Positions 3,845 to 39,894 of a stretch of 39,894 nt of DNA are shown here, one piece after another. Within the stretch, counting starts at the first letter, position 1. Every line of letters starts with the position of its first letter. The stretch lies in IMG/VR virus record IMGVR_UViG_3300013772_000031, positions 1 to 39,894 of that record; one strand, 5' to 3'. This DNA comes from a virus. The notes beneath the pieces were generated by a model. It was not told the DNA's origin and did no database searches. It worked only from the letters and a program-made list of their open reading frames with translations. Made by a program: the position numbers and the translations under genes.

Positions 3845-4573
3845 ATGACAGATGAAGTAATTGAAAGTGGTGTACAAGATCAAACTGGAACGCAAGATGT
3901 AGGGACACAAACTACGGCACCTGCTCAGCAAGCAACATCAAATGCTGACATGGTGAGTAAATCACGTGTAGCAGAGATTGTTTTAGAACAACGACGTTTG
4001 GCAGCTGATAAAGCTTATGAGCGCGGTGTTCAAGAAACTACACAGAAGTCTCAACAACAAGCGTCTAGCATGGGTGGAATGGCTCAGCGCAGCGATGAAG
4101 ATTTACGTCGCATGATGCAAGAGGAATTCCAGGCTCAGCATGGCAGGTTGCAGGACGAGTTTAGAAAGCAAGAAGTCCAGCAACAAGTTGATAAGTTGAC
4201 CAATGATTATGTTGGCAAGCTTAATGCTAGCAAGGATAGATACCCTGATCTTATGAAGCGTCAAGATGAGTTAGCTGATATCGTTGATTTGATACCTTTT
4301 ATCAACGAGAGTGACGAAGCGGCAGGGATTACACAACATTTGCTAGACAATGGTCACAATGTTGCAAGTCTCATGGTGCTACAACACAAATCACCTAACA
4401 TGTTAAGACGAGAACTTCAAAAATTAGCAGCATCAATCAAGAATAACGATGATGCAGTTAATAGACCACGTGCCAATGAACCACTGTATCAGCCAACTCC
4501 CTCGACATACACGATGGATAGTGGCAGTGATTCGATTGAAGGCCTTAAGAAACAATCTTACCTTAGAGGGTAA
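3845..4573 (+). CDS. Scaffolding protein (P22 gp8-like role)
   Basis: This 242-aa, highly charged, glutamine-rich and mostly helical protein lies directly upstream of the coat gene, the usual position of scaffold. It begins with a disordered Thr/Gln-rich acidic segment (DQTGTQDVGTQTTAPAQQ), continues with a long coiled coil (EEFQAQHGRLQDEFRKQEVQQQVDKLTNDYVGKL) and ends with a short basic tail (EGLKKQSYLRG), as expected for coat binding by scaffold C-termini. It is shorter than P22 gp8 (303 aa). It would guide procapsid assembly and leave before packaging. Call rests on position and architecture. Confidence 0.75.
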   Translation: MTDEVIESGVQDQTGTQDVGTQTTAPAQQATSNADMVSKSRVAEIVLEQRRLAADKAYERGVQETTQKSQQQASSMGGMAQRSDEDLRRMMQEEFQAQHGRLQDEFRKQEVQQQVDKLTNDYVGKLNASKDRYPDLMKRQDELADIVDLIPFINESDEAAGITQHLLDNGHNVASLMVLQHKSPNMLRRELQKLAASIKNNDDAVNRPRANEPLYQPTPSTYTMDSGSDSIEGLKKQSYLRG

Positions 4574-20110: not shown

Positions 20111-20611
20111 ATGACAAGCAATGATATCAAACACACTGCACGCTATCAACTGTCACGTTTTATACAATCAGAAGATTCATTCAAGTTAGACTTAGACTTT
20201 AAAGACATAGCCCTTCTTACAACAATTTTTGACTTTATGGATTCTGGCAAAGAAGAATGTTGTTTTGTTGATCAAATTAAATTAGCAAAAATTTCTCGTG
20301 TCCCGAGGAGAACTATAATTGAAAGGTTGAAGAAATTAATTAAATTTGAATTATTAAAAAAAGAAAGAAAAGGTTATAAAAATCACTATTTCATCGGAGA
20401 CGCCATTAAAAAGTATGTGCAGTCGCTGCACTTAGTAAGTGCTACAGCGGCACATAGTAAGTGCAGTAGCGGCACTTTATATAATAATAATTATAATAAC
20501 AGTTATAACAATAGGCATTCTGCGAACAATAAAAAACCAAATGCATTGAAACAAACGGCAAAAGAATGGGGGCCTGGTCATACTTCATGGGAAACGTTGC
20601 ATAAAATATAG
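20111..20611 (+). CDS. Winged-helix DNA-binding protein, possible replication initiator
   Basis: This 166-aa protein has a winged helix at about residues 50-100 (CCFVDQIKLAKISRVPRRTIIERLKKLIKFELLKKERKGYKNHYFIG), like the N-terminal domains of phage replication initiators and HTH_36-type proteins. After it the gene contains three 22-bp DNA repeats followed by a very AT-rich stretch coding Tyr/Asn-rich sequence. That layout recalls lambda O, whose origin lies inside its own gene. It is much shorter than lambda O and lacks an obvious helicase-loading C-terminus, so a transcription regulator is the alternative. Confidence 0.6.
   Translation: MTSNDIKHTARYQLSRFIQSEDSFKLDLDFKDIALLTTIFDFMDSGKEECCFVDQIKLAKISRVPRRTIIERLKKLIKFELLKKERKGYKNHYFIGDAIKKYVQSLHLVSATAAHSKCSSGTLYNNNYNNSYNNRHSANNKKPNALKQTAKEWGPGHTSWETLHKI
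20417..20482 (+). repeat. Three tandem 22-bp iterons, each GTGC-N7-GCAC, in the winged-helix gene
   Basis: Copies start at 20417, 20439 and 20461. Each opens with a GTGC(N7)GCAC palindrome; the first two end TAGTAA. AT-rich DNA (20475-20512) follows. Because 22 is not a multiple of 3, the copies are read in three frames (VQSLHLV, SATAAHSK, CSSGTLY), so the conservation is at DNA level. The spacing is about two helical turns, placing sites on one face. Candidate origin or operator array. Confidence 0.72.
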
Positions 20612-20620: not shown

Positions 20621-20693
20621 GCAAGCATAAAAAACAACTATTGTATTATACTTGCATTTGCATTAAATTACCTGCAAGCATAATACAATAGGA
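20621..20693 (+). promoter_or_regulatory. Operator-like palindrome overlapping the P63C promoter/RBS
   Basis: Nineteen-base arms at 20638-20656 and 20673-20691 are complementary except at one position, with a 16-base spacer. The half-site GCAAGCATAA occurs directly at 20621 and 20674 and inverted (TTATACTTGC) at 20646. TTGCAT (20659) and CATAAT (20679) could be promoter boxes with a short 14-base spacer. The right arm abuts the AGGA ribosome binding site (20690-20693) of the P63C gene, so either protein binding or RNA folding could block expression. Confidence 0.6.
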
Positions 20694-30552: not shown

Positions 30553-30587
30553 TGTAAATAGCAACTATTAAAGTGAATAAGGACGTT

Positions 30588-30926
30588 ATGAGTTATAAAA
30601 ACGTTATACACGGAAATTTTTATTACAAAAAAATTGCTGCTAATATTCCAATTTCAAATGAAGTTATTATTGCTTGTGGAAAAGAAGCTATAAATATTTC
30701 TAGTCGTTTTAATGATATCCCGCCCTGGTTAATACTCCCGTACCCTGATTCTGCAATACTTTATAAGTGGCCAGTTTCTGGCGCTAAAATAATTATCTTT
30801 GATACTAGCTTATGTGATGATGATTATTTAAATGACTTGGCTTACTGTTTATACACTGCGAATGCAAGCGTAGTGAGGTGCGTATTACCTGATTTTTCCG
30901 GTTTCACTTTTGATAAACCCATATAA
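30588..30926 (+). CDS. Hypothetical 112-aa protein before the helicase
   Basis: The ATG at 30588 has AAGGAC 4 bases upstream. The protein is mixed alpha/beta (ACGKEAINISSRFNDIPPWLILPYPDSAILYKWPVSGAKIIIFDTSLCDDDYLNDLAYCLYTANASVVRCVLPDFSGF) with no known motif, and the neighbouring helicase lacks a primase domain. It may be a replication accessory, by position only. Confidence 0.55.
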   Translation: MSYKNVIHGNFYYKKIAANIPISNEVIIACGKEAINISSRFNDIPPWLILPYPDSAILYKWPVSGAKIIIFDTSLCDDDYLNDLAYCLYTANASVVRCVLPDFSGFTFDKPI

Positions 30927-30938
30927 CAAGGATTTTTT

Positions 30939-32195
30939 ATGCACAAAAGAAGAGCAACTTCTAAACCCAAAGATTATCAGACAGATAATAGTAATATATT
31001 AAAATTCCCTGAAAAATTATTTTATCCTGACATATGTCCATCCAATCAAAGACCTTTAAATACACGCGAAAATTTAAAATACTTACTTGATAGATATAAA
31101 ATAAAAGTATGTTGGAATATCATGTTAAGAAATAGAGAAATCACCATACCTCATACAAATAATTTTGTAGATGAAAAAGAAAATGCTGATTTAGGGGACA
31201 TTTATCACATAGCAACTATAAATAATATGCCAACTAGTAAATTAGATGATCATTTAAATTCAATTGCGTGGCTTAATACATATCATCCAATTATAGAAAT
31301 GATTAAAGCTAATCCGTGGGATAAAACCTCTAGAATTGACGAATTTATTGCTACATTAAAAACTCCAAATCCTGAAAAATCAAAAATAATCATTAAACGC
31401 TGGTTAATATCTGCTATAGCTGCCGCATATAGTGTTAATGGATTTGCTGCGCACGGTGTATTAACCTTGCAAGGAAAGCAAGGAATTGGAAAAACAACAT
31501 GGATTAAAAATCTAGATCCTATTAACTGCAAAGCAGTGACAGAAGGATTGACATTAGATCCAAAAGATAAAGACTCAATGATACGTGCTACTTCATGTTG
31601 GATTGGAGAACTATCCGAACTTGATGGAACTTTTAAAAAATCACATATTGCGCCAATAAAAGCATTTATCACTAATGTGGTAGATATTATTCGGTGTCCT
31701 TTTGCTAGAAAAAATACTCAATTTTTCAGACGAAGTGTTTACGCTGCTACCGTGAACGAAAAGGAATTTTTAGTAGACGATACGGGAAATAGGCGTTGGT
31801 GGACTATAGAGATTGAAAGTATAAATAATAATCACAGTATTGATATGAAGCAATTATGGGCTGAAATATATGACATATGGAAAAATGGAGAGCAAAGTTG
31901 GTTAACTCCAAAAGAAGAAGAGATTCTAAATAATAGCAATGAAGCTCACGAAAAAGTAGATCCATTCTTTGAGATGCTACATCTACATTATGATATGGAA
32001 TGCCCAGCTCGGCGTTGGGCTATGCCCGTTCAAATATTACAAGAGATAGGAATTAAGACTCCTGGAATTTCTGAAACTATACGGATGGGAAAAGCCTTAG
32101 TTAAATTTACAAATAACACTAAGAAATTTGTTAGAGGAAGACCTCATTATGAAGTGCCTTTTTTCTTAAATCGAACATCCCCCTATATTTTATAA
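30939..32195 (+). CDS. VirE-type (virulence-associated E) SF3-like helicase
   Basis: This 418-aa protein has Walker A GKQGIGKT (residues 179-186), Walker B-like WIGELSELD (221-229), a polar motif AATVNEKEFLVDDTGNRRWW (269-288) containing the arginine finger, and flanking helices typical of PF05272 proteins. These are hexameric replicative helicases of phages and satellites, often with a primase. Here the N-terminal ~110 residues are not a recognisable primase. An AAGGA site precedes the ATG. Downstream lies an iteron-like noncoding field, as in satellite replicons where the origin follows the helicase gene. Confidence 0.88.
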   Translation: MHKRRATSKPKDYQTDNSNILKFPEKLFYPDICPSNQRPLNTRENLKYLLDRYKIKVCWNIMLRNREITIPHTNNFVDEKENADLGDIYHIATINNMPTSKLDDHLNSIAWLNTYHPIIEMIKANPWDKTSRIDEFIATLKTPNPEKSKIIIKRWLISAIAAAYSVNGFAAHGVLTLQGKQGIGKTTWIKNLDPINCKAVTEGLTLDPKDKDSMIRATSCWIGELSELDGTFKKSHIAPIKAFITNVVDIIRCPFARKNTQFFRRSVYAATVNEKEFLVDDTGNRRWWTIEIESINNNHSIDMKQLWAEIYDIWKNGEQSWLTPKEEEILNNSNEAHEKVDPFFEMLHLHYDMECPARRWAMPVQILQEIGIKTPGISETIRMGKALVKFTNNTKKFVRGRPHYEVPFFLNRTSPYIL

Positions 32196-32510
32196 ACCAC
32201 CTCACCCTGCATTAAATTCTTCCTCACCCCTCACCTGTTTTTGACGATAATTAGGTGAGGCGGGTGAGGCAGGGTGAGGTATGTATAATAACCCTCCTCA
32301 CCCGATCCGTGCCTTGGTACGTAAGGGTTTGTAGTATAGGGTGAGGAGGGTGATGTTATATTATACTTTAGATAGGTAGTACCTCTTTATGTTCTATATC
32401 TACACTATACGTATTATTATATTACAGCACCCCCCCCCTATAGGGGAATTCTCCTCTTTTCCCTCACCTACCTCACCCTGGGGTAAAATGTGACGGATTT
32501 TACCCCCCCC
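32196..32510. other. Noncoding GGTGAGG heptamer field around AT-rich DNA, candidate replication origin
   Basis: Ten exact GGTGAGG heptamers lie within 278 bases: plus strand at 32254, 32263, 32273 and 32340; minus strand at 32200, 32222, 32229, 32296, 32462 and 32471. They form nested stems: ACCTCACCCTGC with GCAGGGTGAGGT (32199/32269), CCTCACCT with AGGTGAGG (32229/32253), and ACCCTCCTCACCC with GGGTGAGGAGGGT (32291/32339). An AT-rich gap spans 32352-32428. Then come a 9-C run, palindrome CCCCTATAGGGG (32435-32446), and stem GGGGTAAAAT/ATTTTACCCC (32480/32497). Repeats flanking AT-rich DNA after a VirE helicase gene resemble satellite origins. Confidence 0.6.
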
Positions 32511-38723: not shown

Positions 38724-39894
38724 TTCCAGGGAAGAAGATCCAGGACGAATTGGAAGGGCTGAAGAAGCTCGTGCAACATACTAATGACTTCTCTAGGCAT
38801 AACTACGAGCGCTTCAATGAATTCCGTAAGTTTGTTTTTGAAACGTCTGTCTCTCAGGCTGAGATAGATATAAACCAAGACATAGGTCGTCCAAACATAG
38901 AAGCCAATGTCACCACAGCATATATATCTAGACTGTGTGGTGAGTTTAGCAAACAGGAGCCCAGCATTGAAGTAGCTGCGGAATATGGTGCTCAGATTGA
39001 TCCTCGCGTTGTGCTATTCATAGAAAATCATACTCGTCATATCCTCGATGAAGCTAAAAAATCTAATACGCAATATCATACTTACCGTGACTCACTCTCC
39101 GGGGGCTTTGGTGTGATGAAAGTCTTTACTGACTATTCATCACCAAAGTCATTTAAACATTGCATCAAGCTGCGCAAAGCTAAGTATCCAACGCTGTGTG
39201 GATTCGATCCTTACAGTGTTGAATCGCACAAAGGCGATGGCTCATATGCATTTGAGATATACCCAAAGACCAAGAAAGATTTTGTGCAAGAATATCCCGA
39301 TATAGACATAGATGATATTAAGTTTTCCGGCGCTGATAGCATTGGCGGCTACAATTGGAGTTTTAACACTGGGCAAGAAGATGTTTTATTAATATGCAAC
39401 ATGGTTAAGAAACGTAAGAAGCGTACTAAGATTGTTGATTGCGCTGATAATAAAACTAGGACTGAAAAAGAATATAAAACATTTGTTGAAGAATGGTACA
39501 AAAGTGGCAGGACGGAGCAAGTACCTGCGGTGACTAATAGTCGTTGGACTAATCTTGAGACTGTTTGCCAGTATGTATTTATCGAAAACAAGGTGCTGGA
39601 ATACCGTGAAACCGATTACAACAATCTCAATATTATTTTTGCTGACGGTGATTCAATTGACTTATATGAAAATGGGAAGGGATCAGTTAAAGAGTTTAAC
39701 CGACCATTTGTCTATAACACTAAAGGCGCTCAGCAATTAAAGAATCTTGGCCTGCAAGCTTTGGCAAACTATCTTGAATCTATATGTCAGCATAAATTCG
39801 TTGTAATGAAGGAAGCAATACCAGAGGAAGCGGAATATGTACGTGCTCTGACGGAGACACAAAAGAGCAATGTTATTGTCGTCAATAGTATGAT
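38720..39894 (+). CDS. Portal protein, N-terminal part (P22 gp1-like)
   Basis: The ATG overlaps the terminase stop. The frame stays open to the end of the window and continues at base 600 of the left side, giving 701 aa in total. The N-terminal region (MIPGKKIQDELEGLKKLVQHTNDFSRHNYERFNEFRKFVFE, then RPNIEANVTTAYISRLCGEFSKQEPSIEVAAE) and the motif LSGGFGVMKVFTDY fit P22-like portals. The last 599 bases duplicate bases 1-599 as a second allele; amino-acid differences there are mild (I/V, K/R, A/T, plus V/E and I/R). Confidence 0.9.
   Translation, partial: MIPGKKIQDELEGLKKLVQHTNDFSRHNYERFNEFRKFVFETSVSQAEIDINQDIGRPNIEANVTTAYISRLCGEFSKQEPSIEVAAEYGAQIDPRVVLFIENHTRHILDEAKKSNTQYHTYRDSLSGGFGVMKVFTDYSSPKSFKHCIKLRKAKYPTLCGFDPYSVESHKGDGSYAFEIYPKTKKDFVQEYPDIDIDDIKFSGADSIGGYNWSFNTGQEDVLLICNMVKKRKKRTKIVDCADNKTRTEKEYKTFVEEWYKSGRTEQVPAVTNSRWTNLETVCQYVFIENKVLEYRETDYNNLNIIFADGDSIDLYENGKGSVKEFNRPFVYNTKGAQQLKNLGLQALANYLESICQHKFVVMKEAIPEEAEYVRALTETQKSNVIVVNSM
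39296..39894 (+). repeat. Right copy of the 599-bp end overlap (allele B)
   Basis: It is gap-free against 1-599, identical over the first 77 and last 77 bases, with about 80 substitutions between. It implies a unit genome of 39,295 bp. Confidence 0.93.

Follow-up and report, generated by a model that had tools for sequence, protein, structure and literature searches.

A field of phased and inverted heptamers behind a VapE-type helicase gene is a probable phage replication origin whose geometry recurs with other unit words

The stretch of DNA analysed here, called the window, is one virus record of 39,894 nt. Positions 1-599 and 39295-39894 are near-identical, though not exact (~600 bases), and lie inside the portal gene. 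From this terminal overlap, the record probably represents a whole genome of ~39.3 kb, either circular or permuted, and its ends probably derive from slightly different variants. Positions 30939..32195 (plus strand) encode a VapE/PriRep1-type initiator helicase of 418 aa (PF05272, E 8e-52), containing an AAA+ domain and a predicted C-terminal winged helix. PF05272 was the only family matched in a family search, and the D5_N/Primase_Cterm match that marks P4-type helicases was not obtained. In the AlphaFold (AF2) model of the helicase (pLDDT 88), the C-terminus forms a helix-strand-helix-helix-strand-strand winged helix at residues ~342-407 (pLDDT ~90). The nearest solved structure to the model was PriRep1 with dsDNA (7pds; Z 26.6 over 385 residues), also matched by profile (E 3e-40), followed in the fold ranking by the C-terminal region of NrS-1 and then by the SaPI5 primase-helicase. 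We take PriRep1 to be a SaPI protein, its entry being annotated as a vapE relative. The C-terminal domain of the window helicase is therefore predicted, from the model, to be a dsDNA-binding winged helix. An ORF of 117 aa that immediately precedes the helicase gene (30573-30926, plus strand) had no family match and appeared Toprim-like by eye. In relatives of 600-800 aa the helicase protein itself has additional sequence at its N-terminus, and primase and helicase may thus be split in the window phage.

The intergenic region after the helicase contains a putative iteron field (32200..32477, both orientations), whose first unit lies 5 bp from the helicase stop. Ten exact copies of GGTGAGG or its complement CCTCACC are present, as the sequence-only reading had counted. 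The whole window holds 13 copies against 1.76 expected, a number reached in 0/100 shuffles, and in a heptamer scan no other cluster of the genome was as dense as the field. Three outer left units on the minus strand (CCTCACC at 32200, 32222 and 32229; 32200..32235) are followed by a phased triple of GGTGAGG pointing towards the core (32254, 32263 and 32273; 32254..32279, plus strand), and by a single inverted unit (32296..32302, minus strand). The left boundary of the core (32340..32355, plus strand) is formed by an exact GGTGAGG at 32340 and a degenerate GGTGATG at 32349-32355. Counted from unit 32349, the triple lies at -95, -86 and -76, the inverted unit at -53 (-54 in relatives), and the boundary units at -9 and 0. 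The core itself (32356..32461, 106 bp), a putative unwinding element, is 66% AT overall, and AT content reaches ~74% over 32351-32430, the 93rd percentile of the window. Beyond it, the right arm (32462..32477, minus strand) consists of two CCTCACC units pointing to the core at 32462 and 32471, with offsets 0 and +9.

Several palindromic elements overlie these units. A perfect 13-bp inverted repeat joins ACCCTCCTCACCC (32291-32303) to GGGTGAGGAGGGT (32339-32351), spanning 32291..32351, and the field also contains a perfect 12-bp inverted repeat (32199-32210/32269-32280) and a perfect 8-bp one. The 12-bp palindrome CCCCTATAGGGG (32435-32446) lies inside the AT-rich core, a hairpin with a 10-bp stem, GGGGTAAAAT-7-ATTTTACCCC (32480-32489/32497-32506), is found to the right of the field, and C-runs occur near ~32430 and ~32503. 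All of these elements, and the AT-rich segment, had been described from the letters of the window alone, and each was found in place. No match to the region was found in Rfam, and a BLASTN comparison with known phages gave no meaningful match to the field. GC skew follows gene direction and is therefore uninformative on the origin.

Fields of GGTGAGG were absent near the homologous helicases of known phages (Jilinvirus, Mica, Persinger and others), several of which carry a cluster of a different heptamer near the helicase. As GGTGAGG was not conserved near helicase relatives, we searched for fields independently of the unit. A single-sequence helicase scan of viral contigs gave no matches; a profile built from a helicase alignment did recover relatives, of which 80 were fetched. 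The survey set comprised 95 VapE loci (the window, the 80 viral-contig relatives and 14 GenBank phages), and a field was defined as at least 6 exact copies of any heptamer, in mixed orientation, above the shuffle maximum. Such a field was present in 43/95 loci, 28 of the 43 (window included) starting -30 to +110 bp relative to the stop of the helicase gene and 15 elsewhere, and 29 different heptamers were used, counts (95, 43 and 28) that include near-duplicate phages and, for the 29, some offset readings of one word. By the same definition no field was seen in 52/95 loci. The longest gap within the field, taken as its core, had a higher AT content than its locus in 28/28 fields adjacent to the helicase; in some phages the field lies 2-4 kb from the helicase.

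A breadth sample of ten further VapE phage or satellite records gave a field downstream of the helicase in 8/10. Fields followed the helicase in a Staphylococcus phage, a Corynebacterium phage and a Paenibacillus phage (10 units), in a Streptococcus phage and APSE-1, a Hamiltonella phage (9 units each), and, more weakly (6-7 units), in two Streptococcus satellites, and a field was detected 381 bp downstream of the helicase in a Pseudomonas phage. No field was found after the helicase in a Bacteroides phage or in a third satellite (2/10). The sequence-only reading had proposed a likely unusual origin and had considered the dense palindromic arrangement new. Its picture of a satellite-like origin beside its own helicase, with iterons around AT-rich DNA, agrees with these results; the arrangement is the common one after VapE helicases, and the suggestion of novelty was not borne out.

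We compared the layout of fields with different words. With > and < giving unit orientation, the template pooled from VapE fields reads > -95, > -85, > -74, < -54, (> -18), > -9, > 0, core, < 0, < +9, < +17, and its AT-rich core is ~60-110 bp long. Automatic unit choice was unsuitable for the window, L355, L386, L334 and L400, and the geometry of the window was read from its exact heptamers. Two loci, L337 (GTGGAACCT) and L338 (GTGTAACCT), have the same arrangement and different words. Across fields with different words, a mean of 3.84 units coincided against 2.89 expected when gaps and orientations were shuffled, and 0/300 shuffles gave as high a value; for pairs that include the window, 3.37 units coincided against 2.94 expected (1/300 shuffles as high). 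The window agreed with the template at 5/7 positions (p 0.011), a p value that is approximate, as the template had itself been derived by inspecting the pooled fields. The 106-bp core of the window is longer than usual for the family, and one of its boundary units is degenerate. As read from these sequences, orientation and a roughly 10-bp phased spacing are conserved above chance while the unit word varies. The earlier reading had held that heptamers not conserved beside a conserved helicase would speak against an origin. Literally this is what was found, the closest helicase relatives (~50% identity) using ATGACACCT as their unit, but the idea of an origin stands, because it is the geometry and not the unit sequence that is conserved.

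Features between the units were less uniform. In L386 (3999-4262), the two arms share more than their units: the intervals form a perfect inverted repeat of 27 bp, which suggests that an inverted duplication of one arm gave rise to this origin. A hairpin between inverted units was not a general, conserved feature of the family (mean z -0.68). A CCTTG(C)TGGTATTGGGTT-like stretch lies between inverted units in L331, L346, L337, L351 and the window (32303-32339); in a search of those intervals for a common short motif (CCTTG..GG.ATTGGGTT-like), no 6-mer exceeded the null.

Similarity between unit words tracked the identity of the helicase C-terminal domains (rho 0.225, p 0.0016). The correlation was 0.145 (p 0.043) given ATPase identity in a partial Mantel test, which was the sole control for phylogeny, and the signal was uneven within identity bands. 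Given the C-terminal domain, word similarity and ATPase identity were not correlated (p 0.15). These sequence comparisons suggest a weak link in which the unit word follows the C-terminal domain.

GGTGAGG fields were also seen beside helicases of another class. The AAA_25 loci were gathered by searching for the GGTGAGG word, and most matches in the first heptamer scan were coding repeats. The fetched viral loci contain the palindrome CCTCCTCACC-N-GGTGAGGAGG at 81 places, most of them within fields of at least 5 related hexamers (mode 11); in bacterial and archaeal genomes, used as a chance control, 106 palindrome sites were found, all with at most 4 hexamers. Most palindrome-bearing viral loci belong to one uncultured phage group (L037, L080, L125 and ~60 more) with an AAA_25 primase-helicase, and here the field is flanked by the helicase and by a ~197-aa gene of no known family with a basic N-terminus. 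Other neighbours of the palindrome are a Prim-Pol/PolA/AAA_25 protein (L062), a Prim-Pol gene (L162) and a DUF3854 primase gene (L022), the last adjoined by a field of 13 GGTGAGG units (4206-4548). A winged helix is predicted at the C-terminus of the AAA_25 helicase, where fold matches were only weak. The AAA_25 fields thus resemble the window in heptamer, palindrome, phased triple and predicted C-terminal winged helix, and differ in the ATPase family and in having one compact ~140-bp arm without a long AT-rich core.

It is an even call whether the window and the AAA_25 phages share the GGTGAGG word by coincidence, only the VapE-type geometry being meaningful in the window; this is a side question that does not compete with the origin reading. 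Word sharing may be coincidental because the AAA_25 loci were found through GGTGAGG itself, and units vary freely in the VapE set. Set against this are the phased triple, which lies at -42, -32 and -22 from the inverted unit in several AAA_25 fields and at -42, -33 and -23 in the window, and the CCTCCTCACC/GGTGAGGAGG palindrome common to both, identical to the outer palindrome of the 13-bp repeat of the window. The triple in VapE fields lies at about -41, -31 and -20 from the inverted unit, and the spacing common to AAA_25 and VapE fields is harder to dismiss than the shared word.

The units could instead be operators, at which a phage regulator would control the early-to-late switch or autoregulate the helicase operon. 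Origins are often regulatory as well, and Jilinvirus-like phages carry the field 2-3 kb downstream of the primase and immediately in front of a late-activator gene. However, in most loci the field keeps its position relative to the helicase stop, an AT-rich core separates oppositely pointing arms, no regulator gene consistently adjoins the field, and the parallel in the literature is an origin, so that we consider an operator array improbable. More improbable still is a role in packaging, with the small terminase binding the field as a pac/cos site. The AAA_25 field does lie between the helicase and the ~197-aa gene upstream of the large terminase, but the small terminase of the window is 3.2 kb from the field, fields of the Streptococcus satellites and other VapE phages follow the helicase whatever the terminase position, and the neighbour that all of them share is the helicase.

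The SaPI Rep helicase uses its C-terminal domain to recognise an iteron origin that immediately follows the rep gene, apparently as two hexamers, and in SCCmec the C-terminal domain of the helicase Cch2 binds direct repeats downstream of the cch2 gene (PMC7581432). Compared by layout, the window resembles SaPI origins in having several short iterons directly behind the helicase gene, AT-rich DNA between the iteron sets and, by prediction, a C-terminal dsDNA-binding domain on a VapE/PriRep1-type helicase whose fold is closest to PriRep1 (7pds) and near that of the SaPI5 primase-helicase. Unlike a SaPI, the window comes from a tailed phage of ~40 kb that encodes a portal and a terminase of its own, and its unit differs. 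Cch2 shares the placement of repeats downstream of the helicase gene; however, it is a D5_N/Primase_Cterm helicase and its repeats are three copies of AAGTG. The origin of satellite P4 also combines short iterons with a primase-helicase, its ori and crr being separate sites, and the P4 helicase family differs from that of the window. The field does not fit a lambda-type O/iteron origin, as it is intergenic and not inside an O-like gene.

Elsewhere in the window, a gene at 20111-20611 (plus strand) encodes a small HTH protein with a weak HTH_36 match and a weak PHROG match to a DnaD-like helicase loader or replication initiation protein. Inside the gene are AGTAAGTGC repeats and an imperfect inverted repeat of 26 nt, and a 19-nt inverted repeat (95%), CTATTGTATTATACTTGCA, lies just after it (20638-20691). 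The region at 20.1-20.6 kb is possibly a second, lambda-O-like origin or its remnant.

Oppositely pointing sets of units flank an AT-rich core directly behind the VapE-type helicase, and this geometry recurs behind other VapE helicases. On this sequence evidence, the GGTGAGG field very probably serves the window phage as its replication origin, one of the SaPI/PriRep1 type. The helicase would bind the GGTGAGG units through its winged helix, with one assembly per arm, and the bound assemblies would open the AT-rich core, allowing the helicase to load as two rings and to unwind the DNA outwards. The protein assembly would keep the spacing fixed, and the unit word would shift in concert in every copy when the DNA-binding domain changes. 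We suggest, tentatively, that a single plan of origin geometry, made up of a phased triple, one inverted unit and boundary units, spans the unrelated VapE and AAA_25 helicase classes, and that the word is rewritten in concert as the C-terminal winged helix changes, which would give each lineage a private origin password separating replicons, satellites and superinfecting relatives.

This kind of origin is already known; what is new is its breadth, the conserved geometry over a drifting word and the parallel beside an AAA_25 helicase, of which no description was found in the open-licence papers searched. Many uncultured and cultured VapE phages gain an origin that can be located through geometry instead of sequence. 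The dozens of natural pairs of helicase and unit could allow the code by which the winged helix reads DNA to be deduced, and would permit a test of whether origin passwords stop satellites from exploiting related phages.
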